Below are positions 1,110-60,866 of a stretch of DNA of 64,000 bases, piece by piece. Origin of the DNA: Methanomicrobiaceae archaeon (GTDB lineage Archaea > Halobacteriota > Methanomicrobia > Methanomicrobiales > Methanomicrobiaceae); NCBI GenBank assembly GCA_029762625.1, contig JARVGI010000002.1, forward strand, positions 126,772-190,771, in the 5' to 3' direction. Below the pieces are notes generated by a model, which was not told where the DNA came from, did no database searches, and worked only from the letters and a program-made list of their open reading frames with translations. The position numbers were made by a program, and so were the translations under genes. How positions within the stretch are numbered: the first letter of the stretch is position 1; each line of letters opens with the position of its first letter.

Positions 1110-1673
1110 TTATATGCCGATGGGGAGGATCAGGCTATTTTCCCTCTCCTCCTCTTTTTGTTCGGCGATATCCAGCGCGGTGAGGAATTTCGATTCCAGC
1201 ATGAGAAGGGATTCGGGCACCACCAGGCCCTGGGCGAGGAGGATGCCGCCGACATCCCTGAGACCCTCCATCAAGCGTGCAGCCCAGACATGTTCGATGA
1301 GAATCAGTGCTGCTGCGCTCTCCGGCGGTATTGTATGGACGATGGTTCGTATCTCAGTCGCCGAAAGCCCGAAATCATGCTGGATATCGGGGCATTGTGC
1401 GCTGCCCGGGCCACCGGGGCACACCTTTCTGACACGGTCGCCGAGGCCGAGGAGGTCCCCGATCAGCGTGGCATACGGCATCGCCGCCTCTTCACTGAGC
1501 TCGCGGGCGTCAAGCTCGGAGATCGTACCCTCTGCATCCTTGCGGATGAAGAGCAGATCGATCAAACGGATAATTCTCCTCTCCCGGATAACGCGCAATT
1601 TCCTGAGGATACTGGCGTAAAATTCCGGTTCTGTAAATCCAATGACGATCATCTGTATCGGACCGAATACCAT
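1110..1673 (-). CDS. DUF6325-like protein, paralogue 1
   Basis: This 187-residue protein opens with VFGPIQMIVIGF followed by RLIDLLFIRKDAEG, the N-terminal pattern of the DUF6325 family. That family is of unknown function and often sits near membrane or stress genes. Its middle and end (ESAAALILIEHVWAARLMEGLRD, then GLVVPESLLMLE) align well with the second copy at 25879-26442, so the window holds two diverged paralogues. This copy has a Cys/Pro-rich patch CPGGPGSAQCPD (about residues 85-96) where the other copy has a longer Ala-rich segment. The start is supported by GGGTGA six to eight bases upstream. No membrane segment is evident, so it is probably a soluble, regulator-like protein; the function is unknown. 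Confidence 0.75.
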   Translation of the reverse strand: MVFGPIQMIVIGFTEPEFYASILRKLRVIRERRIIRLIDLLFIRKDAEGTISELDARELSEEAAMPYATLIGDLLGLGDRVRKVCPGGPGSAQCPDIQHDFGLSATEIRTIVHTIPPESAAALILIEHVWAARLMEGLRDVGGILLAQGLVVPESLLMLESKFLTALDIAEQKEEERENSLILPIGI

Positions 1674-2161
1674 GATTCACCCACTCCCTGTGCTTCTTGC
1701 ATCCTCAATTTGTTCGAAATTGCAACCCGTATCGCCTGCAATAGCAGCATTCTTCTCATTTGCGGCCTGCATGGTGCTACCTGCCAGGCGATTTCTGCGG
1801 ATGGTCATCCTCTCAGTCGCCGCACGTCTGTTTCAATCCCTGCATCGTTGGGTGGAGATGCCCGTTCCGGGGTGCACGTTCGCTCGTGAAATTCCCCGGG
1901 AAAAATGCTCAGATCGGTGAGGGAGAGAGGGCGCCCGTGGGAGGGATTTTATCTATCCCGATATATAATATTTTTCACCCCGCTGCTTTTTCCTGTTCGC
2001 CATCGGGAAGCATCGATCCTCGCCTGCGGATGAGACCGTTATTGCCGGGAGCCGTATCATGTGCGTGTGAACCTCATTGCCGGGTGCGACACATTTAGAT
2101 ATATGCAGAGAAATATATACCTCGTGTATTATATAATCACTCCTCGTGATGATGATCCAGA
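1674..2161. other. Intergenic region, 488 bases
   Basis: No convincing gene is seen; the short open frames have poor codon character and no ribosome binding sites. Two AT-rich patches stand out, ATATATAATATTTTT near 1961-1975 and the block 2098-2138. The second is the likely promoter of the plus-strand ATPase operon; the first could be an upstream promoter or a regulator site. Confidence 0.6.
2111..2120 (+). promoter_or_regulatory. Putative TATA box of plus-strand ATPase operon
   Basis: AAATATATAC lies 42-51 bases before the ATG of atpH. Transcription starting about 25 bases downstream would give a leader of roughly 20 bases. A GTGAT anti-16S match (2146-2150) then precedes the start codon by 11 bases. 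A second AT-rich string, TATTATATAAT (2127-2137), lies just after it. Confidence 0.5.
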
Positions 2162-2539
2162 ATGGCTAACAGGGAAATTGACAGTATCAAGCAAATTGAG
2201 GCAGATTCCCTCTCTCTTCTTCAAAAAGAACGAGAAGAAGCGGAAAAACGGATTCGGGATGCAGAGAGGAACGCCGAAGAGTTGATACGACGCAGGCAGC
2301 ATGAAGCACACGAAACTGTGCTCCGGATGAAGGTCGAAGCCGAGGAGGCAGCAATCGCTGAAGCTGAGAAAATCCGGAGAGAAGGAGAGAAAAAGGTCGA
2401 AGAAATGAAAAAACACCATCTCCACAGACTTTCCATCGCTGTCAAATCCATTCTAATGCATATTTTGGGTGAGAACAGTGCTGTTTCCGCAAACGATGAA
2501 ACAGGTATATCTCGGGTTGCACCGGGCGTACCTGAATGA
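2162..2539 (+). CDS. atpH: A-type ATP synthase subunit H (peripheral stalk), cluster 1
   Basis: This 125-residue protein is almost entirely a charged helix (EREEAEKRIRDAERNAEELIRRR and so on). It matches the long coiled coil of subunit H, which pairs with subunit E in the peripheral stalks tying A1 to the membrane stator. It is the first gene of a nine-subunit cluster in the order H-I-K-E-C-F-A-B-D, as in other euryarchaea. Its 3' end overlaps the start of subunit I by about 60 bases, an unusually long overlap suggesting translational coupling. The last 25 residues (after HILGEN) are not coiled-coil-like and lie wholly in the overlap. Family assignment rests on position and coiled-coil character. 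Confidence 0.85.
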   Translation: MANREIDSIKQIEADSLSLLQKEREEAEKRIRDAERNAEELIRRRQHEAHETVLRMKVEAEEAAIAEAEKIRREGEKKVEEMKKHHLHRLSIAVKSILMHILGENSAVSANDETGISRVAPGVPE

Positions 2540-4460
2540 ATTGCTCTCGGATCTGCATGAAGCAGGGCTTCTTGAGATCACCAATATCTGGGATGCCGAA
2601 GGCACGCTCTGCGCTGCCCTGAATGAGGGTGAACGCCGTCCCGAAATTGAAAAATGCGCTGAGAGTATTCAGGATATCGCCACCCTCATTGATGTGCTGG
2701 GGGAATCCCGCGAGGAGGAGGAGGAGGGGATCCTGCACCTTCTGCTGTCACCCCGGCCGCCACGGAAAATCTCTGTGGAGAAAAAAGATTTCCACCAGCT
2801 CTGCAGGGAAGCGGAGGAGGTCATGTCCGGAGCCGGTGCAGCAGTCGACGTGAAACGATCGCTCGATGCCCTTCGTGCACGCATCGGGATTTTACATGAA
2901 CAGCAGGAGTCGATCGCCATGCTGGCGCCATTTGAGCTGGATCTCGGGTATCTCGGAGAGTCGGAGCTTCTCTACACGGTTCCGGCGGTGATCGACACCC
3001 CGGCATACCGGCACTTTGCTGAAAAGATCGATAAAGAACGCTTCGACACCCTCCATATCTCCAGGATTGCTGCCGGATCGCAGACGGTGGTGATCCTCAC
3101 GACGGTCAGGGAGGATCGGGACCATCTCGATCATCTTCTCCAGGAGCCATATATCAGGATCCTCGAGATCGAACCCTTCACCGGTGCCCCCCGGGAAACG
3201 ATTGCCGCCATCCAGTCTGAAATCGAGGTGCTCGGCCGGGAGGAACGTGAACTCATGGATGTGTTGCGGGCGACCGACGCGCGGTACGGCGAACACCTGC
3301 GGCAACTTCACGAGGAGGTGTGCATTGAAAAGGACCGCCTGATGACGCACACCCATTTCGGCTGGACGCACGATACGGTGGTGATTGAAGGCTGGGCGGC
3401 GGAGAAGGACTGTGACAGGCTGCAGGAGATCTGCGATGCGTCGACGGCGGGGCACGTTTTCTGCAAATTCCATGATCCGGACGGCACGTCGGACAACGTT
3501 CCCGTATGCTATGACAATCCAGGGTGGCTGCGCCCCTTTGAGGCGGTCACTACGATGTTTGCCCGGCCGCGGTACGGAGAAGTCGACCCCACCCTCTTTA
3601 CTGCGCCCGTTCTCATTCTCTTCTTCGCCCTCATGCTGGGCGACGCGGTCTACGGGCTGATTATCACCGTCATCGCGGCAGTGCTGTACCGGGGGGCGGG
3701 AACGGTCAGCAGCACCATCCGCGACGGGAGCATCCTCCTCATGGCCGCGGGTGTGGCGACAATCGTATCGGGCATCCTCCAGGGCGGGTATATGGGCGAT
3801 TTCCTCCCGCGATTTCTGGGAATAACACCGCCCTTTGTGATAATCAACGCACTGGAGGAGCCGATCGTGTTTCTCAGGCTCGCCCTCATCATCGGTATCG
3901 TCCAGATAAATCTGGGCCTGTGCATCGCGGCGTACCAGAACCTGAGGAAGAAGAGGTATACGGAGCTGCTCAAGGGCCAGGTATCGTGGTTTTTCCTGCA
4001 GCCTGCCGCAGCCATCATGCTGTTTGCCTTTTTCGGGTGGGGGACGTTTGCGCGCGCCGTGATGATCGCGTCGGCGCTGGCAGCGGTTGTCGGGATTGGC
4101 CTGATCCTGCTCAGGTCCGGCCCGCTCGGTTTTTTCGATCTCACGGGGTTTCTCGGGGACTGGCTCTCCTACGCACGCCTTCTCGCCCTCGCGCTGGCGA
4201 CGGGAGGCATCGCGATGACGGTGAACATACTTGCCCAGATGGTCGCCGGCGACAACCCCCTCTGTATCATCCTCGCGGCGTTCATTTTTATCGCCGGACA
4301 GACGTTTAATTTTGTCCTGCAGACGCTGGGGGCCTTCATTCATTCACTGAGGCTGCAGTTTGTCGAGTTCTTCGGGAAATTCTACACCGGAGGGGGGAAG
4401 GAATTCTCCCCCTTCATGGCAAAAAGAGAGATTACCGAGCTCAATGGAGGTGATGTCTGA
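2478..4460 (+). CDS. atpI: A-type ATP synthase subunit I (a-subunit, ion half-channels), cluster 1
   Basis: This roughly 660-residue protein has a soluble N-terminal half (to about residue 370) that forms the stator arm, then a C-terminal membrane half with about eight helices starting near FTAPVLILFFALMLGDAVYG. The conserved LSYARLLALALATG segment holds the arginine (about R567) that faces the rotor carboxylate in this family. The GTG at 2478 is preferred because GGGTGAG (2468-2474) sits just upstream and the resulting N-terminus (MLFPQTMKQVYLG) fits the family; a GTG at 2469 is also possible. The stop overlaps the atpK start (TGATG), and GGAGGTGAT lies within its last codons, so I and K are tightly coupled. 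Confidence 0.95.
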   Translation: MLFPQTMKQVYLGLHRAYLNELLSDLHEAGLLEITNIWDAEGTLCAALNEGERRPEIEKCAESIQDIATLIDVLGESREEEEEGILHLLLSPRPPRKISVEKKDFHQLCREAEEVMSGAGAAVDVKRSLDALRARIGILHEQQESIAMLAPFELDLGYLGESELLYTVPAVIDTPAYRHFAEKIDKERFDTLHISRIAAGSQTVVILTTVREDRDHLDHLLQEPYIRILEIEPFTGAPRETIAAIQSEIEVLGREERELMDVLRATDARYGEHLRQLHEEVCIEKDRLMTHTHFGWTHDTVVIEGWAAEKDCDRLQEICDASTAGHVFCKFHDPDGTSDNVPVCYDNPGWLRPFEAVTTMFARPRYGEVDPTLFTAPVLILFFALMLGDAVYGLIITVIAAVLYRGAGTVSSTIRDGSILLMAAGVATIVSGILQGGYMGDFLPRFLGITPPFVIINALEEPIVFLRLALIIGIVQINLGLCIAAYQNLRKKRYTELLKGQVSWFFLQPAAAIMLFAFFGWGTFARAVMIASALAAVVGIGLILLRSGPLGFFDLTGFLGDWLSYARLLALALATGGIAMTVNILAQMVAGDNPLCIILAAFIFIAGQTFNFVLQTLGAFIHSLRLQFVEFFGKFYTGGGKEFSPFMAKREITELNGGDV

Positions 4461-50399: not shown

Positions 50400-50575
50400 G
50401 AAAAGAGTATTTTCATCTGCCACTTTTAATTCATCGGTTTGCATTGGGAGGGCGGTCCGCAACCGGGCCCGGCAGGATGCTGCCGCACCCGTGTGCGCAT
50501 GCCGGCGCACCGCCATGACCGGGAGAGCGGTTGAATGATACATTCATAGGGGCAGACGTGCCATGCGGGGATGCC

Positions 50576-51730
50576 ATGGACACCGATGCAACCACCGTAT
50601 TCAGCCGGGACATCATGCGCGAGTTTGCCGCCCTGACCGGACTTGAGCCTCCCGGCACCCGTCCCAACCGTTACCTGTGGACGGACGCTTTCGCGGTCTG
50701 CACCTATCTTGCGCTCTTTCGCCGGACGAACGACCGGAGCTTGCTTGACCGTGCGCTACGCCTCGTCAACCTGGTGCACCGCACCCTCGGGCGGCACCGG
50801 GACGACGATCCCAGAGACGGCTGGATCAGCGGGCTCTCCGAGCGGGAGGGGGCGCTTCACCCGACTCTGGGGGGGCTGCGGATAGGAAAGCGCATGAACG
50901 AACGCGGGGCAGACGAACCTCCCGACGCGCACGAAGAATGGAACCGGGACGGGCAGTACTACCATTACCTGACGAAATGGATGCACGCCCTTGCTCGCGT
51001 GGCAGCGGTCACCCGGGATCCTGTGTATCTGCGGTGGGCGATGGAGCTCGCAAAGGCCGCGCATGCGGCGTTCACCTATGCCCTCCCCTCGGGCGGCGGC
51101 AAGAGGATGTGCTGGAAGATGAGCATCGATCTGTCCCGTACCCTCGTCCCCTCCATGGGCCAGCACGACCCGCTCGACGGCCTGGTCACCTATGCTGAGC
51201 TGCAGGGTGTGGCCGCGCGGGATTTCGGAGGATCGGTGCCGCTCGATCTTCTCCGTGAACGTGCAGATGCGGCCGCGATATGCCGGGGCATGCCGCTTGT
51301 CACCGATGATCCGCTCGGGATCGGCGGACTCCTCTTCGACGCCACGCGCATTGCGCATTTGATGGAAGTGGGAGGATTCGGCGACGAAGGCCTGCTCGAA
51401 TCCGTCATGGACTCGGCCATGATTGGTCTGGAATCCTACACAGCAGGAAGAACGCTCGATCTGCCCGCGCAGCACCGCCTTGCCTTTCGCGAGCTCGGGC
51501 TTGCGATCGGGATCACCGGGGTTGCGGAGTGTGCGAATGCGTTTGGCCGGACCGATGCCCTTGAGCGGCGGGCCGAAGCCCTCGTGGGCTATATGCCGCT
51601 TGGGGACGCGATCGAAGGGTTCTGGATGGATGAGAGGAACCGGCAGGCCCGCACCTGGATCGAGCATACGGAGATCAACATGGTGATGCTCGCCGCCCGT
51701 CTCGCACCTGATGAGTTCCTTAGGGTATAG
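50576..51730 (+). CDS. Helical protein with alpha-toroid-like pattern, unknown function
   Basis: This roughly 384-residue soluble protein is rich in Ala, Arg, Asp and Leu. The pattern suggests paired helices (DAFAVCTYLALFRRTNDRSLLDRALRLVN, then YYHYLTKWMHALARVAAVT, then LRWAMELAKAAHAAFTYAL, described in order). The alternation of helices with WxxD/YxxH positions recalls (alpha/alpha)6 barrels such as GH8-, GH88- or GH127-like enzymes, but no catalytic motif is clear. The ATG at 50576 (after GGGGATGCC) is preferred over 50531, which has no ribosome site. The TAG stop sits at the natural end of the protein. I do not recognise the family. Confidence 0.7.
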   Translation: MDTDATTVFSRDIMREFAALTGLEPPGTRPNRYLWTDAFAVCTYLALFRRTNDRSLLDRALRLVNLVHRTLGRHRDDDPRDGWISGLSEREGALHPTLGGLRIGKRMNERGADEPPDAHEEWNRDGQYYHYLTKWMHALARVAAVTRDPVYLRWAMELAKAAHAAFTYALPSGGGKRMCWKMSIDLSRTLVPSMGQHDPLDGLVTYAELQGVAARDFGGSVPLDLLRERADAAAICRGMPLVTDDPLGIGGLLFDATRIAHLMEVGGFGDEGLLESVMDSAMIGLESYTAGRTLDLPAQHRLAFRELGLAIGITGVAECANAFGRTDALERRAEALVGYMPLGDAIEGFWMDERNRQARTWIEHTEINMVMLAARLAPDEFLRV

Positions 51731-51991
51731 GCTGGTTTCGAGGAAATAACAGGATTCCGGCTGCAAACATTGTCACGGTGCATGGGGGTGCCGGAAGGAA
51801 GACCCGGAGAAGGAAATCCGGTGGTTCTCCGTACACGCGGAGATATGGATACATATCCATTGCGGGGCACTGTAGGACGGGAATCATTTTCTGGATCCTT
51901 TTTATCGACAAACTATTATGTATGTGGGAAAACCAGAAAACTCCTGTTTCGGGGGAAAACCCTGAGTGTTGCTATGGAGGTGAGGTGCGGT

Positions 51992-52378
51992 ATGGTTGCG
52001 GATGATGTCAGGAAAGCCATCGATACGGCAAATGAACGGTTCATGGAAGGATTCGTGAAGGGGGATGCCTCGATTACGGCATCGGGGTTTGCAGAAGAGG
52101 CAGTCGTCTTCCCCCCCGATACCCCGGTGGTCCAGGGAAAGAAGGCGATCGAGAATTTCTGGGCGACGGTCATGGCATCCGGGGTGAAAGAGGTGCAGCT
52201 GACCACGGACGAACTCGTCGGGAGTGGCGAGTATGTCCACGAGCGGGGAACCGGGATCCTCACAGTCCGCCCTGCCGGCGGGATACCCACCGAGCAGACG
52301 ATCAAGTACGTCGTCGTCTGGCGGCAGACTGCAGATGGCTGGAAGAACCTCTGGGATATCTGGAACACCTCCCCCTGA
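51992..52378 (+). CDS. SnoaL/DUF4440-like small protein
   Basis: This 128-residue protein (VADDVRKAIDTANERFMEGFVKGDASITASGFAEEAVVFPP, abbreviated, then KKAIENFWATVMASGVKEVQL and QTADGWKNLWDIWNTSP) has the NTF2-like cone fold pattern of the SnoaL/DUF4440 family. The family covers small-molecule isomerases or hydrolases and unknown roles. The ATG at 51992 is chosen because GGAGGTGAGGTG lies just upstream; an open frame reaches back to 51770 but that part lacks family similarity. The gene stands alone. Confidence 0.85.
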   Translation: MVADDVRKAIDTANERFMEGFVKGDASITASGFAEEAVVFPPDTPVVQGKKAIENFWATVMASGVKEVQLTTDELVGSGEYVHERGTGILTVRPAGGIPTEQTIKYVVVWRQTADGWKNLWDIWNTSP

Positions 52379-52588: not shown

Positions 52589-52930
52589 CTATGCAGGTCG
52601 TGTGATCTCCGGGGTCACTTCCCGTGCCCGGGCCGAGTACACCCTGAACTCCTTGACCTCGGGCGGGCCCGTGAGGTACTTCTCCAGTTCCTCAAGCGGC
52701 TCCTTCAGGGCCCCGGTGGGATGATATAGCTGTTCCGCAGAGGCTTCCATCGCATCTTCGTCGTCCCAGAACGTGAGAATCACCTCTGAATCAGGGTCTT
52801 CCTCCGATAGCAGGATAACGTCCCCGCGAAACCCGCGCATGCCGATTGCCATGATTTTATCGAGCGTTTCAAGCGCCTCTTCCCGCTGGCCGCTTCTGTA
52901 CTTCCAGACAGTCATCCGTGCACCTACCAT
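52589..52930 (-). CDS. Small ABM-like (antibiotic biosynthesis monooxygenase fold) protein
   Basis: This 113-residue protein (GARMTVWKYRSGQREEALETLDKIM, then GFRGDVILLSEEDPDSEVILTFWDDEDAMEAS, abbreviated, then YHPTGALKEPLEELEKYLTGPPEVKEF) has the dimeric ferredoxin-like pattern of ABM-type proteins: strand-helix-strand with a W residue and an EVILTFWDDEDAM core. Function is unknown; such proteins are often stress-related or act on small organic molecules. Confidence 0.75.
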   Translation of the reverse strand: MVGARMTVWKYRSGQREEALETLDKIMAIGMRGFRGDVILLSEEDPDSEVILTFWDDEDAMEASAEQLYHPTGALKEPLEELEKYLTGPPEVKEFRVYSARAREVTPEITRPA

Positions 52931-53232: not shown

Positions 53233-53865
53233 CTATCTCTTCTCCATGAACGCATACACCGCCAGGTGGGGCGCATACTTCCCTGCGATCGTGCGTGTCT
53301 CCAGATCGATGATAGCAAAGTGTGGGGAGAAGAGTTCCGCGAGTTCCTCTTCCGAGGAGAAGTAGAGTACGGTCCCGATAGGGGTTCTCCGGTATTTTCC
53401 CTCGCCCCCGAACTGCGGATCCGATTCGCTGAAGCAGACCGAGAGGTACTTCCCCCCTGGCCCAAGCACCGCATGTACGTTCGCCACGTACTGCTCCCTT
53501 TCATCGGGCATGATATGGTGGAGCAGTTCCCAGTCGTATGCAAACCGGCATGAGTTGCGCATCCAGCCGACGTCTCCGAGCACGTCTGCGACCAGAAAAT
53601 CGGCAGTCACTCCTTTCTTGTCTGCCTTCTCCCTGGCAATCCGAATCGCCGTCGGCGAGATGTCGATTCCGGTCACCCGAAACCCTTTCGATGCCAGGTA
53701 GACGACAGAGGTCCCCGTACCGCATCCGAATTCGACGGTCCTGCACGGTGTCACCCTGCCACCCTCTACCAGATCCACCAGCGCCTCCGGGGGTTCGGAC
53801 ATATCCCAGGGAATAGCCTCCGGATTCATTGTCGCGTAGAGGGTCTCCATGTCGATCTGCTTCAT
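53233..53865 (-). CDS. SAM-dependent methyltransferase
   Basis: This 210-residue class I methyltransferase has the SAM-binding motif I VEFGCGTGTSVVYLA, motif II acidic residue in TGIDISPTAIRIA, LVADVLGDVGW and motif IV FAYDWELLHHI, followed by VHAVLGPGGKYLSVCFSE. The ATG at 53865 gives the typical start MKQIDMETLYATMNPEAIPWD; the open frame continues to 54003 but the upstream part is unlike the family. It lies 134 bases after the GH15 gene on the same strand. Substrate is unknown; the EGKYRRTPIGTVLYFSSEEEL segment is typical of tellurite/thiopurine-type small-molecule methyltransferases. Confidence 0.9.
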   Translation of the reverse strand: MKQIDMETLYATMNPEAIPWDMSEPPEALVDLVEGGRVTPCRTVEFGCGTGTSVVYLASKGFRVTGIDISPTAIRIAREKADKKGVTADFLVADVLGDVGWMRNSCRFAYDWELLHHIMPDEREQYVANVHAVLGPGGKYLSVCFSESDPQFGGEGKYRRTPIGTVLYFSSEEELAELFSPHFAIIDLETRTIAGKYAPHLAVYAFMEKR

Positions 53866-53999
53866 GCCGTTCACCGGTTCGCCGCTCGCAGGAGATAGTG
53901 GGAGTTCGCAGCTGATGAATGGTGCGGCGGCGAGGACGGCAGGTCGCCGGCGGACATCCGGATCAGAGCGATACGCCGGGCATCTGGAGATATACTTCA

Positions 54000-55958
54000 T
54001 CACTGCAGAGGTGCGGGTGCATCAGTACCGCGCGATCCGCCTCCCCCCGCCGCACCGCCCCGGGGCTGCTTGCGGTTCATGAGTGCCCGGTGCTCGGGGG
54101 TTCCGATCGGTGCGTACTCCGAGACCTCCCTGCCCATAGCGTATGCGAGGTAGATGGCGCTGTTGATAAGCCCGATATGGGTGAACGCCTGGGGGAAGTT
54201 CCCGAGGAACGCTCCGGTCACCGGGTCGAACTGCTCGGCGTAGAGGCCGACATGGTTGGCATGGCCGACCATCCGTTCAAAGAGCTCGCGAGCCTCGTCC
54301 ACCCGTCCCGAGAGCGCCAGGACATCGATCAGCCAGAAGGTACAGAGCCCGAATGCTCCTTCCTCGCCGGGAAGACCGTCGTCCGCCAGGTAGCGGTAGA
54401 CGAAGCCGTTTGCCACCAGACCTTCGATCGTCCGATCGATCGTCGACTGCACCCGCTCATCGTCGAAGGGGAGGAACTCCAGCAGCGGTATGCGGAGATT
54501 GGCCGCGTCCAGGGTCTTCGATCCATAACTCTGCACGAATGCACCCACCTCAGTGTCATACCCATGTGCAAGCACCTGCGCTTTGATCTCGCTGCGGCTC
54601 CTCCTCCAGCGTTCCACATCGCCCGTAAAGCCGCACTGCTCTGCCATGTGGATTGCCCGGTCGAGCGCCACCCAGAGCATCACCTTCGAGTAGACGAAGT
54701 GGCGGGGTTCGCTGCGGATCTCCCAGATACCGTGATCCGGCTCATGCCAGAGCGCGCACGCCTCATCGGCGACCCGGGCTAAAAACGCCATTTGATGCTC
54801 TGGCATCTCGAATCCGCGGCGCTGCAGCTCGTATGCGGTGTTGAGCAGCTCCCCGTAGATCTCCAGCTGGAGCTGCGTGGCCGCGCCGTTGCCGATCCGG
54901 ACGGGGCGCGAACCGCAATAGCCCTCGAGATGATCGAGCTCCTCCTCGCCGAGGTCCGATCGCCCGTGGATGCCGTACATGATCTGGAGCGCCGGCCCCT
55001 GTTCGGCCTGCATCTCCGAGACCCGTTCCATCCAGGAGAGGAGTTCGACCGCCTCCGTCTCATGCCCGAGGGCGATGAGCGCCTGCGCCGTCATGGCAGA
55101 GTCGCGTATCCACGCGTACCGGTAATCCCAGTTCCGGACGCCGCCTATCTCCTCGGGGAGCGATGTCGTCGGTGCGGCGGCGATTGCCCCGGTCGCCGCA
55201 TTCGTCAGCATTTTCAGGGCGAGCTCCGACCGGAGAAGCATCGGGAACCAGTCGCCTGCCCATGCCGGTGCGTGGGTCGTGCCGTCCCTGTGCGCCCATT
55301 GGCGCCACGTCGCGATCGTCTCCTCCTCGGCCGCGGTCACGCCACCGGGATCGAAGGTCATATCCTCCGTCCCCCACCGGGTGACCAGAACCCGCCGGTC
55401 GCCCTCCTGCATGGTAACGCGCGCCCTGAGCACCTGCCCGTCACCTTCATCGGCCACCGTCCCCCCGGCAAGGCCGAAGAGCACCATCTCGTCCCTGCCG
55501 TCGGTCGCCAGCCAGCCACCGGGGATGCGCTCGATACCGGTCGGCGACCTCCCGTAGTCCAGCCGCGGCGACCACTCCACTCTCACCTCTGTTGTCCCCC
55601 GGGTGCACCTGAGGATGCGGTGGATCTCGGGCGGGGCGTGCGACCCTCCCCGGCCGGTGAGGTCCCCCGCAAGCGGCATCAGGTCGGTCACCGCAAGCGA
55701 TCCGCGCTCGCCGGGAAACTCCGTCTTCAGTACGTTCGTGTCCTGCACGTAGCGCTGCTCTCCAAGACCCGCCTCCGGGACGGTAACCGCAAACCTCCCG
55801 CCCCGCCGATAATCCAGGATGGCGCCAAAGACACTGGGGCGGTCAAGGTACGGAAAACAGCACCAGTCGATGGACCCGTCGCGTCCGACGAGGGCAACGG
55901 TGCGGAGATTTCCGATGGCGGCATACGCAGCAATCGGCTTGTAATGTCCGCCCTGCAT
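54000..55958 (-). CDS. Glycoside hydrolase family 15 (glucoamylase/trehalase-like)
   Basis: This roughly 652-residue protein carries the N-terminal beta-sandwich domain of prokaryotic GH15 enzymes (start YKPIAAYAAIGNLRTVALVGRDGSIDWCCFP), then the (alpha/alpha)6 catalytic barrel: GGVRNWDYRYAWIRDSAMTAQAL, LWHEPDHGIWEIRSEPRHFVYSK with the general acid Glu, and GLYAEQFDPVTGAFLGNFPQAFTHIGL with the general base Glu. It releases glucose from alpha-glucans or trehalose. The C-terminal tail is Gly/Arg/Pro-rich. The ATG at 55958 follows GGGTGAGGGT and lies four bases after the upstream oxidoreductase stop. No signal peptide: probably cytoplasmic, acting on glycogen or trehalose. Confidence 0.95.
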   Translation of the reverse strand: MQGGHYKPIAAYAAIGNLRTVALVGRDGSIDWCCFPYLDRPSVFGAILDYRRGGRFAVTVPEAGLGEQRYVQDTNVLKTEFPGERGSLAVTDLMPLAGDLTGRGGSHAPPEIHRILRCTRGTTEVRVEWSPRLDYGRSPTGIERIPGGWLATDGRDEMVLFGLAGGTVADEGDGQVLRARVTMQEGDRRVLVTRWGTEDMTFDPGGVTAAEEETIATWRQWAHRDGTTHAPAWAGDWFPMLLRSELALKMLTNAATGAIAAAPTTSLPEEIGGVRNWDYRYAWIRDSAMTAQALIALGHETEAVELLSWMERVSEMQAEQGPALQIMYGIHGRSDLGEEELDHLEGYCGSRPVRIGNGAATQLQLEIYGELLNTAYELQRRGFEMPEHQMAFLARVADEACALWHEPDHGIWEIRSEPRHFVYSKVMLWVALDRAIHMAEQCGFTGDVERWRRSRSEIKAQVLAHGYDTEVGAFVQSYGSKTLDAANLRIPLLEFLPFDDERVQSTIDRTIEGLVANGFVYRYLADDGLPGEEGAFGLCTFWLIDVLALSGRVDEARELFERMVGHANHVGLYAEQFDPVTGAFLGNFPQAFTHIGLINSAIYLAYAMGREVSEYAPIGTPEHRALMNRKQPRGGAAGGGGSRGTDAPAPLQ

Positions 55959-55962
55959 ACCC

Positions 55963-56937
55963 TCACCCGACAAGTGCGGGGAGTACTTCTCGCCCGAAGT
56001 CCTCGATGAAGGTGGCCTGGTCGTCCGTCACGTTATGGAGATAGATCTTGTCAACGCCGAGGTCCAGGAACGTCTGCAGCCACTCGGTATGCAGGCTCAG
56101 GTCCGACGAGACCCGGATATGCTGTCTCAGCTCCTCCCGGTCGACATGTTCCCCCATCGCATCAAACTCGGCGGGACTCCTGATCTCGGTAATGAGCCCC
56201 CCGCCGAAGACCAGGTTCCGCCACTGCTCCCATGCGCCCCGGAGCGCCTCCTCCTCGGTCCGGGCGTACGCAATATCGAGTTTGAGATAGATCCGCTTTC
56301 CTTCGCCACCGCCTTTGCGGAAGAGCTCGATGCTCTCTTTCAGTTCGCAGACCGGTTTTGCCAGGGTGATGAGGCCGTCGGCCCACCCCGCCACCCATTC
56401 CACGGTGCTGCAGGCGTTTGCAGCGGCAAAGAGAAGCGGCGGCTCCGGTGGGCGCGTATAGAGGTGCGCCCGGTCAACCCTGATATGCCCGTCGAATGTC
56501 ACGCGCGCTCCCGCCCAGAGGTCGCGCATCACGCCGGCGCACTGAAGCAGCCGCTCGTTCCTTTCGGAACGGTTCGGCCAGCGTTCGCCGATAATCCCCT
56601 CGTTGAGCACCTCTCCGCTGCCGATGCCCATCCAGAACCTGCCGGGAAACATATCGGCGAGCGTCGCCGCGCTCTGGGCGAGGACGGCCGGGTGGTAGCG
56701 ATAGCCGGGTGCGGTGATGATCCCGAAGGGGATCGTCGTCGCGTGCATCGCGGCACCGAGCCACGACCATGCGAAGCCGCTCTCTCCCTGCGTCTCGCTC
56801 CACGGGTGGAAGTGGTCGGAGGAGAGCACCGACCGGAATCCGGCCGCCTCGGCAGCCAGCGTGAAGGTGAGCAGATCACGGGGGCGGAACTGCTCATGCG
56901 AAGCATAGTACCCAATCTTCTGTCCGTTCTCATTCAT
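55963..56937 (-). CDS. LLM-class flavin/F420 oxidoreductase (TIGR03885-like) 1
   Basis: This 324-residue protein of the luciferase-like monooxygenase superfamily has IGYYASHEQFRPRDLLTFTLAAEAAGF, SSDHFHPWSETQGESGFAWSWLGAA and RFWMGIGSGEVLNEGIIGERWP, typical of the family annotated as probable non-F420 flavinoid oxidoreductases (TIGR03885), related to F420-dependent glucose-6-phosphate dehydrogenases. Cofactor (F420 or FMN) is undecided. The ATG at 56937 follows GGAGGTGCATGC. It is the downstream member of a tandem pair (110 bases apart) and is directly followed by the GH15 gene. Confidence 0.9.
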   Translation of the reverse strand: MNENGQKIGYYASHEQFRPRDLLTFTLAAEAAGFRSVLSSDHFHPWSETQGESGFAWSWLGAAMHATTIPFGIITAPGYRYHPAVLAQSAATLADMFPGRFWMGIGSGEVLNEGIIGERWPNRSERNERLLQCAGVMRDLWAGARVTFDGHIRVDRAHLYTRPPEPPLLFAAANACSTVEWVAGWADGLITLAKPVCELKESIELFRKGGGEGKRIYLKLDIAYARTEEEALRGAWEQWRNLVFGGGLITEIRSPAEFDAMGEHVDREELRQHIRVSSDLSLHTEWLQTFLDLGVDKIYLHNVTDDQATFIEDFGREVLPALVG

Positions 56938-57047
56938 GCATGCACCTCCGGTGCGCAATCCTTCGATCCCACCCGCGTCTGCCGGCACCCGGGGCGGCTC
57001 CACCCGTTCTGGCGGGATATGCAATCAGCGCAGCCGATCGGGCGGCA

Positions 57048-58022
57048 TTATCCGGTGAGGGCAGGCAGCACTTCGTTCCCGAAGTCTTCGATGAACGCGT
57101 CCTGATCCCGGTTCACGTTATGGAGATACAGGCGGGAAAACCCGAGCCCGATATCGGCTTTCAGCCATTCGATATGCTCCTCCGGGTCCGCGGAGACACG
57201 CACCTCGCCGGCAACCTCGTCCGGCGTGATGAACGCGGCGGCGGCATCGAACTGGCCGGGGGTCCTCAGGTTCTCCAGCACCGTGCTGGAGAGGATATTG
57301 GCGCGCCACTGGTCGTGCGCCCCTGCAACCGCCTCCTCGTGCGTCCGGGCGTAGGAGAGATCGACCTTGAGATACCGCTCCTTCCCCGCGCCGCCGCCGC
57401 GGGAAAACGCCGCCGCAATATCCCGGAGGTCTTCAGGAGGTCGTGCGACGGTGATGAGGCCGTCCGCCCATCCGCCCACCCACTCCGCGGTGTCGGCGGA
57501 GAGGGCGGCGCCGAGCAACGCCGGCGGTTCTGCAGCGCGGGTGTGGAGGTGCGCTTCGACGGTGCGGATGGGGCCTGTGGTCGTCACGGTTTCCCCCGCC
57601 CAGAGCCTGCGCATGATGGCCGCCGCCTCCCGCAGCCGCTCGTTTCGCTCCTGTTTCGGAGGGCATGCCTCACCGCAAATCCCTTCGTTGAGCACCTGCC
57701 CGCTCCCGACGGCGACAAAGAACCTGCCGGGGTACATCTCGGCAAGGGTTGCCGCCGCCTGCGCGATGATGGCGGGATGGTAGCGCTGGACGGGTGCGCA
57801 GACAACCCCCGCCGAGAGCGAGGTCGCCTGCAGTGCCGCCCCGAGCCATGACCATGCAAATCCGCTCTCCCCCTGCCGCCAGCTCCACGGGTGGAAGTGA
57901 TCGGAGGAGAGTACGCTGCCGAATCCGGCATGCTCTGCACGGTGTGCGAGCTGCAGCAGAGAACTCGGGCGAAACTGCTCGTGGGATGCGTGGTAGCCAA
58001 TCGCCAGCTCCGGATCCGTCAT
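57048..58022 (-). CDS. LLM-class flavin/F420 oxidoreductase (TIGR03885-like) 2
   Basis: This protein is also 324 residues, with the same motifs as its neighbour: IGYHASHEQFRPSSLLQLAHR, SSDHFHPWSWRQGESGFAWSWLGAA and RFFVAVGSGQVLNEGICGEACP. The two are full-length homologues but differ at many positions, so the tandem duplication is old. The ATG at 58022 follows GGAGGCGGTGCG. The ATTAAATATC element at 58081-58090 (minus strand) sits 59-68 bases upstream and is the likely promoter of the four-gene run LLM-LLM-GH15-methyltransferase. A glucose- or glucose-phosphate-related substrate is possible from the GH15 link. Confidence 0.9.
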   Translation of the reverse strand: MTDPELAIGYHASHEQFRPSSLLQLAHRAEHAGFGSVLSSDHFHPWSWRQGESGFAWSWLGAALQATSLSAGVVCAPVQRYHPAIIAQAAATLAEMYPGRFFVAVGSGQVLNEGICGEACPPKQERNERLREAAAIMRRLWAGETVTTTGPIRTVEAHLHTRAAEPPALLGAALSADTAEWVGGWADGLITVARPPEDLRDIAAAFSRGGGAGKERYLKVDLSYARTHEEAVAGAHDQWRANILSSTVLENLRTPGQFDAAAAFITPDEVAGEVRVSADPEEHIEWLKADIGLGFSRLYLHNVNRDQDAFIEDFGNEVLPALTG

Positions 58023-58317: not shown

Positions 58318-59745
58318 ATGAGCATGATCATCGATGTGACCGGGCTGTTCGTCTCCCTGATGGCCCTCGGCGTCCTGCTCCTCATCGGGCAGGCGATACG
58401 GAGCAGCGTGGGCATACTCCGGGCCATCTTCCTGCCAACCTCGATCATCGCCGGGTTCATCGGCCTCCTCATCGGCCCCCAGGCGCTCGGCGCCCTGATC
58501 ACCCGTGTTGCGGGGCCCGATGCGCTCTTTGCCGGCGGCCTCCTCCCTCCTTCTCTGCTGGACGTATGGTCGGAACTGCCGGTCCTCCTCATCAACGTGG
58601 TCTTTGCCGCCCTCTTTCTCGGCAAGGCCATTCCGGGGATCCGCGAGATCTGGTCGGTCGCCGGTCCTGTCATCACCTATGGCCAGACCGTTGCCTGGGG
58701 ACAGTACGTCGTCGGGCTTCTCCTGGCGCTCCTGATCCTGACACCCGTCTTCGGCCTGCCGCCGGAGGCCGGCGCTTTGATCGAGATCGGGTTTGAAGGC
58801 GGTCACGGGACAGCTGCCGGCCTCTCCGGGTCGTTTGAGGCCCTGGGGTTTGCCGAGGCCGCCGACCTTGCCCTCGGGCTTGCCACGGTCGGGGTGGTGA
58901 TGGGTGTGGTCATCGGCGTCGCCCTGGTGAACCGATCGTTCCGCTCGGGGCAGATACCCGCCCCCGGGACGGTCCTGCACCCGGAGGCGGAGGAGATTCT
59001 CGTGTGCGAGACCATGCAGGAGCAACCCCCCGGTGAGGTCGATCATCCCGATATCGCCGCCGAGTCCCTCTCCATCCACCTGGGGGTCGTCTCCCTCGCC
59101 ATCATCATCGGGTGGGTGCTCCTCCAGGCCCTCATCCGGGCGGAAGCAGTGCTCCTTGACCTGGTCGGGATGCAGGACTTCGCCCTGATGCACTACATCC
59201 CGCTCTTCCCGCTGGCGATGATCGGCGGGCTCATCCTGCAGGTGGCGCTGGAACGGCTGGGCCGGAGCGATCACCTGAACCGCCCCCTCATCAACCGCAT
59301 CTCCGGCACCGCCCTCGACGTCCTCATCCTTGCTGCCATTGCCACGCTCTCGCTGACCGTCATCGGGGAGCACCTTGTACCGTTCCTCATCCTTGCCGCT
59401 GCCGGGGTCCTCTGGAACGTGGGCGCATTTCTTCTTCTCGCCCCCCGGCTGATCCCGGAGCACTGGTTTGCGCGGGGCATCCCCAACTTCGGGCAGAGCA
59501 TGGGCATGACCGCGACCGGCCTGCTCCTCTCGCGGATGACCGACCCGAACGACCGCGCCCGGGGCGTAGAAGGGTTCGGCTACAAGCAGCTGCTCTTCGA
59601 ACCGGTCGTCGGGGGAGGGCTTTTTACCGCTGCATCGATGCCCCTGATCGTCCAGTTCGGGCCCGTGGTGATGCTCCTCGTGACGGCGGTCGTTATGGCC
59701 GGATGGCTCATCTTCGGCCTGATCTCGTTTGGCCGTTCCGCCTGA
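58318..59745 (+). CDS. gltS: GltS-type sodium/glutamate symporter
   Basis: This 475-residue protein has about 12 helices. The GltS patterns are IRSSVGILRAIFLPTSIIAGFIGLLIGPQ near the start, GFEGGHGTAAGLSGSFEALGF (the first re-entrant loop) and HWFARGIPNFGQSMGMTATGLLLSRM, then GYKQLLFEPVVGGGLFTAA in the second half. It probably takes up glutamate or a related acid with Na+. A strong ribosome site GGGGGAGAGGATGGA precedes the ATG. The region between helices 6 and 7 holds a longer acidic soluble loop (about residues 215-250) than usual. It is transcribed away from the LLM operon. Confidence 0.93.
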   Translation: MSMIIDVTGLFVSLMALGVLLLIGQAIRSSVGILRAIFLPTSIIAGFIGLLIGPQALGALITRVAGPDALFAGGLLPPSLLDVWSELPVLLINVVFAALFLGKAIPGIREIWSVAGPVITYGQTVAWGQYVVGLLLALLILTPVFGLPPEAGALIEIGFEGGHGTAAGLSGSFEALGFAEAADLALGLATVGVVMGVVIGVALVNRSFRSGQIPAPGTVLHPEAEEILVCETMQEQPPGEVDHPDIAAESLSIHLGVVSLAIIIGWVLLQALIRAEAVLLDLVGMQDFALMHYIPLFPLAMIGGLILQVALERLGRSDHLNRPLINRISGTALDVLILAAIATLSLTVIGEHLVPFLILAAAGVLWNVGAFLLLAPRLIPEHWFARGIPNFGQSMGMTATGLLLSRMTDPNDRARGVEGFGYKQLLFEPVVGGGLFTAASMPLIVQFGPVVMLLVTAVVMAGWLIFGLISFGRSA

Positions 59746-59792
59746 GCCGACAATCCGGCTTCCTGTCCACCGATCGGTCCGGGAACGGGAGG

Positions 59793-60866
59793 ATGGCATG
59801 CAGTCCTGCCACACCCTTTAATAGCTCATCGGTGTACTTTCGGCGTCAATGGGATCCAGCGCGTCTCCTCGACAGTTACGGCGTCCCTCTCCTTGCAGCA
59901 GCCATCTTCGTCGTTGCCGCGGTTGTGTTCTGGCCGCTGCTCGATGTGGTGCTCCTGAGCGTGACCCTCGCCGTGGTTGTCATGCCGCTCCAGAAACGCC
60001 TCAACCGCACACTGCATCCCCCGATCTCTGCCATCATCCTGACCTGCACGCTGGTTGTCCTGCTTTTCGCCTTCGGGTCCTTCATCGCCGCTCTTCTCTA
60101 CCAGAATGCCGATTACCTCATTGAGGGCGTCAGGAGCCTCGTTTCCCTCATTGAGAGGATCCAGGCCGGGGTGTACGGGATGCCCTCCTTCGTCTCACCG
60201 GAGGCGGTGCAGGAATGGTTTGCTGTGCGCCTGGCGGGCGTCCTCGATTCCCTGACCGCGCGAACGGTTGCCGCCCCGGGCGACCTCCTCCGCGCCGCCA
60301 TCTTTTTTCTGGCTTTCTATCTTGCCCTCCTCTCCGGCGAGCGGGTGTATGCCGGAATCCTGCAGAAACTGCCGGGCCGGCTCGCCGGCGCCTTCGGCGC
60401 GGTGGCGGTGCGATCCGCCGATACGCTCTATGCCATCTACGTCGTCGAGGTCATCGTCGCGGTCATCACGTTCTTCATCGCAGTGCCGTTCTTTTTCTTC
60501 ATGGGCTATGAGCGCATCTTCCTGTTCTCCTTTATTACCGCCGTCTTCCAGCTGGTGCCGGTCATCGGCCCCTCGGTTCTTGTGGTGCTCCTTGCCCTGC
60601 TGGCCGTGAGCGAGGGTGATCTCGTGCGGGCCGGCCTCATCATCGCCGTCGGCTATCCGGTCGTCGCCGCCGTTCCCGACATCTACATCCGGCCGTTTTT
60701 GATGGGTGAGCAGACCGGCATCAGCAAGGTGGTCCTCTGGATCGGCATCTTCGGCGGTATCCACGTGATGGGGCTCGTCGGGTTCGTCTTCGGGCCGCTG
60801 ATCCTGACCTGGGTGACGACGATCTATGGCCTCCTTGTCGGCGGGACGGAGCATGGCGGGGGATGA
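59793..60866 (+). CDS. AI-2E family transporter (PerM-like) 2
   Basis: This roughly 357-residue protein of the AI-2E/PerM family has SYGVPLLAAAIFVVAAVVFWPLLDVVLLSVTLAVVVMPLQKRL (abbreviated) at the start, a soluble middle (VRSLVSLIERIQAGVYGMPSF) and VFQLVPVIGPSVLVVLLALLAVSEGDL and GGIHVMGLVGFVFGPLILTWVTTIYGLL at the end. It is only distantly like the copy at 37300-38343. The start is uncertain: ATG 59793 follows GGGAGG at short spacing, GTG 59832 is also possible, and TTTAATAG (59817-59824) between them looks like a TATA box, which would favour a later start. The gene lies 47 bases after gltS. Confidence 0.88.
   Translation: MACSPATPFNSSSVYFRRQWDPARLLDSYGVPLLAAAIFVVAAVVFWPLLDVVLLSVTLAVVVMPLQKRLNRTLHPPISAIILTCTLVVLLFAFGSFIAALLYQNADYLIEGVRSLVSLIERIQAGVYGMPSFVSPEAVQEWFAVRLAGVLDSLTARTVAAPGDLLRAAIFFLAFYLALLSGERVYAGILQKLPGRLAGAFGAVAVRSADTLYAIYVVEVIVAVITFFIAVPFFFFMGYERIFLFSFITAVFQLVPVIGPSVLVVLLALLAVSEGDLVRAGLIIAVGYPVVAAVPDIYIRPFLMGEQTGISKVVLWIGIFGGIHVMGLVGFVFGPLILTWVTTIYGLLVGGTEHGGG

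Follow-up and report, generated by a model that had tools for sequence, protein, structure and literature searches.

Within the luciferase-like monooxygenase (LLM) class of oxidoreductases, the dehydrogenase branch comprises the FGD (F420-dependent glucose-6-phosphate dehydrogenase), FSD and Adf/FGD2 types. All of them are F420-dependent according to part of PMC6279831, which also describes the FSDs as requiring very high concentrations of unphosphorylated sugars before they accept them. For FGD, the phosphate-binding residues have been named, their mutation raises the KM for glucose-6-phosphate by about two orders of magnitude, and a bulge with a non-prolyl cis-peptide is said to hold the F420 ring (from part of PMC5352752). 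The Fgd of T. roseum is likewise presented as F420-dependent in part of PMC12750041. A further family, TIGR03885, is listed in NCBIfam as a hypothetical equivalog named FMN-dependent LLM class oxidoreductase, and its curated model carries no function. Our literature searches found no paper naming TIGR03885, and nothing relevant that links LLM or luciferase-like enzymes with GH15, glucoamylase or trehalose, or LLM enzymes with glucose dehydrogenase, trehalose synthase or F420. For the FGD residues Glu109, His40 and Trp44, none of the best 10 of 133 matching papers was relevant. Here we describe two TIGR03885 genes, LLM1 and LLM2, that precede a gene of glycoside hydrolase family 15 (GH15) in a 64,000-nucleotide stretch of a Methanomicrobiaceae archaeon (the window; contig JARVGI010000002.1, positions 126,772 to 190,771).

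We tentatively conclude that the LLM and GH15 genes form a sugar-breakdown unit, in which GH15 would cleave trehalose or a different alpha-glucoside, the LLMs would oxidise the free sugar, and the cofactor would more probably be flavin than F420. The initial annotation had suggested a putative sugar operon. Its operon-like layout and the combination of glucose release with oxidation are well supported by comparative data, whereas its F420 and glucose-6-phosphate part is disfavoured. The linked glycosidase, the co-occurrence with a trehalose synthesis gene and the altered pocket make the substrate and cofactor of this family testable. If flavin is indeed used, the family would represent a natural cofactor reversal among F420 dehydrogenases and would give methanogens, which are not usually regarded as sugar oxidisers, a way to turn over trehalose or glycogen.

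The LLM-GH15 locus and its recurrence

Four genes share the minus strand and run from 58022 down to 53233, as seen in the open reading frame listing and the sequence. LLM1 (57048..58022; ATG 58022, stop 57048) and LLM2 (55963..56937; ATG 56937, stop 55963), both of 324 aa, are separated by a spacer of 110 nt, and GGAGG precedes the start of each. The ATG of the GH15 gene (54000..55958, minus strand, 652 aa) lies at 55958, four bases past the LLM2 stop, and a class I S-adenosylmethionine-dependent methyltransferase gene (53233..53865, minus strand) follows. The reading frames and profile scores bear out this arrangement, which the initial annotation had described: taken on frames slightly longer than 324 aa, the scores against TIGR03885 are 472.9 bits for LLM1 and 452.4 bits for LLM2, at a cut-off of 398.7 bits. 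About 60 nt upstream of LLM1, a TATA-like ATTAAATATC on the minus strand (58090-58081) is near-identical in the close relative L033 and is a plausible candidate for an archaeal promoter. Consensus scans yielded one promoter-like site versus 1.1 expected and five terminator-like sites versus 2.4 expected, nothing usable in either case.

The host genome comprises 2.2 Mb in 28 contigs, and its nearest named relative is a Methanoculleus metagenome-assembled genome (MAG), the L033 mentioned above. For LLM1, LLM2 and GH15, the ratio of non-synonymous to synonymous substitution (dN/dS) is 0.16-0.21 in the comparison with L035 and 0.25-0.43 in that with L033, a very close relative. Contamination or an assembly artefact was rejected, as the same gene order is present in other methanogen genomes.

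The recurrence of the pair was evaluated in 294 archaeal genomes from the source phylum, with adjacency defined as lying within 1.5 kb of the LLM gene. TIGR03885 members above the cut-off are found in 11 genomes, five of the source order and six of a second family, f21 (probably haloarchaea). GH15 adjoins the LLM on the same strand in all five of the former and adjoins it in three of the six latter, and one genome (G033) holds two LLM-GH15 pairs in tandem. By comparison, GH15 adjoins none of the 19 sub-cut-off LLM relatives (L060-L078). The same order, LLM then GH15 on one strand, appears in two Myxococcales MAGs, one of them cut by a contig end; these are the only TIGR03885 holders among 282 Myxococcota genomes (E 1e-100), and both were first reached through a GH15 query. 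The conserved unit is LLM plus GH15. Because the adjacency recurs across genomes, and in view of the dN/dS values of the three genes, the grouping is more than chance.

The pairing is nevertheless not uniform, and its irregularities weigh against our reading. Among the three adjacent f21 pairs, two are divergent and one has GH15 first, while the two genes lie apart in the other three f21 genomes (G213, G227 and G319), and G227 has a sub-cut-off LLM about 2 kb from GH15. Likewise, Methanoculleus NL_3.1 (L099) has LLM1 without GH15 beside it; there (1480-3844) a serpin gene takes the place of GH15 after the LLM1 homologue.

In a midpoint-drawn tree, from which 15 of 66 rows (all non-TIGR03885 archaeal) were omitted and which holds no Myxococcales rows, all TIGR03885 rows fall into a single clade (100/97), to which T. 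roseum Fgd is sister (98/90), and the Adf-type rows fall outside. The archaeal members group together (97/89) within nine bacterial ones. Transfer from bacteria is therefore likely, and the archaeal TIGR03885 unit was probably acquired in this way. The split between LLM1 and LLM2 lies inside the methanogen clade (98/88), implying a tandem duplication there.

The GH15 enzyme and its likely substrate

The GH15 protein matches PF00723 with 239.5 bits (cut-off 22) and the TREH_N domain PF19291 with 77.9 bits, also above its cut-off. Among the curated models, that of the archaeal alpha,alpha-trehalase TreH1 (NF041084) gives it the highest score. An AlphaFold2 model with a mean predicted local distance difference test (pLDDT) score of 77.7 matches GH15 structures, including isomaltose glucohydrolase 5z3e (Z 36.2, root-mean-square deviation 3.0 over 334 residues) and bacterial glucoamylase 1lf6 (Z 35.4, 3.4 over 533). 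PDB sequence searches returned mostly pentatricopeptide designs, and the genuine GH15 matches were those of the 5z3a set. Glu413 and Glu575 are invariant in all 13 aligned rows; judged by their position, they may be the catalytic acid and base. This alignment left out L033 and L038 (both for a stop in the reference), L040 and L048, as well as the loci from the genome-wide searches. We suppose that the enzyme would hydrolyse trehalose, or less likely a maltodextrin or an isomaltose-type glucoside, to glucose.

The trehalose assignment draws on co-occurrence in the same archaeal sample, where GT20, the trehalose-6-phosphate synthase family, is present in 51 of the 294 genomes and a relative of the source-locus GH15 in 24. 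All 11 TIGR03885 genomes hold both. GT20 is found in 19/19 genomes with a stronger GH15 (at least 374 bits) versus 32/275 others, and in 0/5 genomes with a weaker one. The presence is therefore nested, TIGR03885 within strong GH15 within GT20. At the genus level, all nine TIGR03885 genera are among the 33 GT20 genera of 107. In a panel of 15 hand-picked genomes, six with the unit and nine without, GT20 occurs in 6/6 and 2/9, respectively, and ADP-glucokinase in 2/6 and 1/9 with no clear tracking. A Methanoculleus is cited in part of PMC12776343 as expressing trehalose-6-phosphate synthase when ammonia is high.

Bacterial neighbourhoods point in a similar direction. We inspected 13 plasmid loci annotated TIGR03885, which were chosen to span genera, not at random, from 98 and 105 matching plasmid records with incomplete gene tables. 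An alpha-glucan or trehalose enzyme is the next gene in five of them: a TreY-MalQ fusion in Spirosoma L079, a TreS-like GH13 in Sinorhizobium L080 and, broken, in Deinococcus ficus L081, GH13 genes on both sides of the LLM in Streptomyces L126, and, in Spirosoma L125, a glucosidase that carries an MGH1-like domain. The Sinorhizobium with the TreS-like neighbour is strain ml21; S. meliloti 1021 holds a TIGR03885 gene as well. None of the TreS-like genes reaches the TreS cut-off of 678.35 (533.6 and 559.4, with 146.9 for the L081 piece), and seven of the 13 loci show no adjacent alpha-glucan gene, which counts against our reading. In 2/13 loci, those of Sinorhizobium and Deinococcus deserti, the LLM has a gene with the annotation D-arabinono-1,4-lactone oxidase in its vicinity; that of Sinorhizobium is above the general FAD-oxidoreductase cut-off and below the sugar-lactone-oxidase one. 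Genes annotated sensory rhodopsin transducer adjoin the lactone-oxidase-annotated gene in both loci (L080 and L124).

It is also possible, if somewhat less so than our reading, that the LLM step proceeds as proposed while GH15 acts on glycogen or maltodextrin instead of trehalose. The solved structures most similar to it are those of isomaltose, glucoamylase, dextran dextrinase and glucodextranase enzymes. Against our own reading, the TreH1 score of 367.8 bits misses the equivalog cut-off of 820, and since the other GH15 of the genome also scores best to TreH1, this score does not discriminate. Glycogen-synthase-like PF08323, with many short matches, is present in 6/6 panel genomes with the unit and 3/9 without, nearly tracking GT20, and GlgX is the third gene downstream of the LLM in Agrobacterium (L084). 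The co-occurrence counts also ignore relatedness, and genomes with only sub-cut-off LLMs are GT20-enriched as well (21/39 versus 30/255). On the other hand, the invariable presence of GT20 alongside the stronger GH15 and the low score of the oligosaccharide amylase model (65.5 bits versus 367.8 for TreH1) speak against a glycogen or maltodextrin substrate. The initial annotation had allowed for glucose release from either glycogen or trehalose: the release itself is retained, and trehalose is favoured by the GT20 co-occurrence and the bacterial neighbours, with PF08323 tracking nearly as well. Overall, the trehalose link of the unit appears moderately supported.

At L095 453-3270 (contig C7), the second GH15 of the genome, which is 34% identical, is convergent to a 6-phosphogluconate dehydrogenase gene whose product passes its cut-off (303.5 versus 297.2). 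Similar surroundings were seen on a Haladaptatus salinisoli plasmid (L129, 4981-7863), where a gene of the SMP-30/gluconolactonase family precedes GH15 at a distance of 177 nt, and a phosphogluconate dehydrogenase gene is found about 5 kb away. On two other haloarchaeal plasmids (L130 and L131), GH15 shares four bases with a gene of the vitamin K epoxide reductase family, and a short-chain dehydrogenase/reductase family oxidoreductase comes next, so that GH15 enzymes of this kind also have another partner.

Cofactor and substrate clues in the LLM active site

Our alignment comprised 36 TIGR03885 rows, some of which are near-copies, and 38 further family rows that include FGD1, Rh-FGD1, T. roseum Fgd, Adf and fHMAD; an earlier LLM alignment had dropped 22 of 83 rows with an identical core, as well as the source-locus copies. 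His40, which we take to be the base of FGD, is kept in 36/36 TIGR03885 rows and Trp44 in 35/36, and both are present in LLM1 and LLM2. With these FGD-type sites, LLM1 and LLM2 might oxidise the unphosphorylated sugar at C1 to the lactone, with the hydride passing to a bound flavin and not to F420. The resulting aldonate could be phosphorylated and then enter the 6-phosphogluconate route, the dehydrogenase of which is present beside the second GH15 of the genome. At the position of Glu109, which presumably protonates N1 of F420, Gln is found in 21/36 rows including LLM1 and Glu in 15/36 including LLM2, near-identical rows being counted. The two copies may therefore differ in substrate or step.

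The phosphate-binding triad of FGD (Lys198/Lys259/Arg283) is replaced by P/L/E in LLM1 and P/I/H in LLM2, and three basic residues occupy the triad columns in 0/36 TIGR03885 rows, with the alignment near 198 uncertain by one position. The complete triad is also present in only 2/38 of the other rows; its absence therefore argues against glucose-6-phosphate and not, by itself, for a free sugar. In addition, part of the role of Lys198 could be taken by a basic residue that precedes its site by one position. A free sugar is favoured over a sugar phosphate, although this choice, like that of flavin as the cofactor, is more weakly supported than the trehalose link.

The residue equivalent to Ser73 of FGD1 in the bulge is absent in 36/36 TIGR03885 rows and present in 38/38 others, so that the bulge stretch has 21-22 residues in TIGR03885 versus 23 in the other rows, as counted from the sequence alignment. 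A cis peptide occurs at the corresponding bulge of FMN luciferases as well. Given the missing bulge residue, the nesting among bacterial proteins, the FMN-dependent family name and the occurrence of TIGR03885 in the control genome of Deinobacterium chartae, which gives no CofD match, flavin seems somewhat more probable than F420 as the LLM cofactor. An AlphaFold model of LLM2 built from nine sequences had a mean pLDDT of 54.7 and was not used.

These observations bear on a second alternative, which is close to the initial annotation: that the LLMs depend on F420, oxidise the glucose or glucose-6-phosphate that GH15 makes available and thereby supply F420H2. The host has CofD, the LLMs also pass the cut-off of the broader F420 family TIGR03557 (261.4 bits for LLM1 and 269.3 for LLM2 versus 210.4), and among proteins of solved structure they are closest to the F420-dependent T. 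roseum Fgd, the sister enzyme in our tree; Glu13, His40, Trp44 and Glu113 are kept in both copies. These points count against flavin. We nonetheless consider the F420 alternative unlikely, since TIGR03885 scores far above TIGR03557, the FGD equivalog cut-off of 420 is missed (144.1 and 148.5 bits), the phosphate triad is absent, the bulge is shortened, and the family also occurs in the control genome without a CofD match. Accordingly, neither glucose-6-phosphate as the substrate nor F420 as the obvious cofactor, both put forward initially, is upheld. No sugar gene adjoins the T. roseum Fgd gene.

Neighbouring genes and comparison with known systems

The methyltransferase does not seem to belong to the sugar-breakdown unit. 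Its start is most likely ATG 53865, 134 nt past GH15, giving 210 aa, because an indel in the spacer between the source locus and L033 breaks the longer frame. Among the loci examined, with no whole-genome search made, it adjoins LLM-GH15 only in the host genome and its closest relatives, L033 and G002, and the named models that match it are generic methyltransferases, TPMT and TehB. Its proposed role as a sugar-modifying operon member is therefore unsupported, and we take it as an unrelated neighbour. Near it, small ABM-domain (52589-52930, minus strand) and DUF4440/SnoaL-like (51770-52378, plus strand) proteins are encoded, and L033 keeps this order. A 399-aa protein (50531-51730, plus strand) has no match in Pfam or PDB sequences; homologues 55-62% identical to it lie directly beside sub-cut-off LLMs in five loci (L027, L032, L108, L113 and L114).

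On the other side, an Nramp-like transporter gene (PF01566; 60956..62365, minus strand) is separated from LLM1 by two plus-strand genes, and its membership in the unit is uncertain. In other methanogens (L051, L100 and L092), such a transporter is found directly beside LLM-GH15. Deinococcus deserti (L124) has one that is 45% identical close to its TIGR03885 gene, in a locus that also includes an annotated AI-2E transporter. The AI-2E gene of the source locus (59703-60866) gave no match to that of Deinococcus deserti at E 1e-4.

Catalase, ferritin-like and stress genes are frequent neighbours of the bacterial LLMs. It is quite unlikely that the LLMs belong to an oxidative or desiccation stress pathway and lie near alpha-glucan genes through shared stress regulation instead of a shared substrate. 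Such a role is consistent with these neighbours, which in several bacterial loci are genes for catalase, ferritin-like, general stress or Ku/LigD proteins, and with the Nramp-like transporter beside the LLM in methanogens and Deinococcus deserti, but GH15 follows at four bases in the source locus, the LLM is paired with different glucosidase types in unrelated bacteria, and an oxygen-using role is improbable in methanogens because they are strict anaerobes.

Extending the sugar-breakdown reading to the whole family, one could picture TIGR03885 as having left F420 for flavin, with a shortened bulge, and sugar phosphates for free sugars. It would then serve a cross-domain, non-phosphorylating route from trehalose or alpha-glucan to aldonate, coupled with GH15 in archaea and Myxococcales and, elsewhere among bacteria, with genes for TreS-like, TreY or further glucosidase enzymes. 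The route would be of bacterial origin, and methanogens would keep the flavin version despite abundant F420. We regard this wider picture as speculative and on balance doubtful.

Compared with known systems, the GH15 enzyme has the TREH_N plus GH15 domain combination in common with the trehalases TreH1 and TreH2 and the isomaltose glucohydrolase of the 5z3a set, and TreH1 is its best model, although it remains well below the TreH1 cut-off. The F420-dependent secondary alcohol dehydrogenase Adf of Methanoculleus (1RHC) is of the same superfamily as the LLMs and is found in related methanogens, but it falls outside the TIGR03885 clade and has the full bulge. FGD and T. roseum Fgd are likewise of this superfamily, the latter as sister to TIGR03885, and their Glu13, His40 and Trp44 are kept in the LLMs; relative to FGD, the LLMs lack Lys198/Lys259/Arg283, have one bulge residue fewer and miss the equivalog cut-off. 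As members of the TIGR03885 family, they pass the curated cut-off and have the His/Trp pair and the shortened bulge of the other aligned members; what distinguishes the present case is the tandem duplication and the pairing with GH15 in a methanogen with F420 biosynthesis (CofD).

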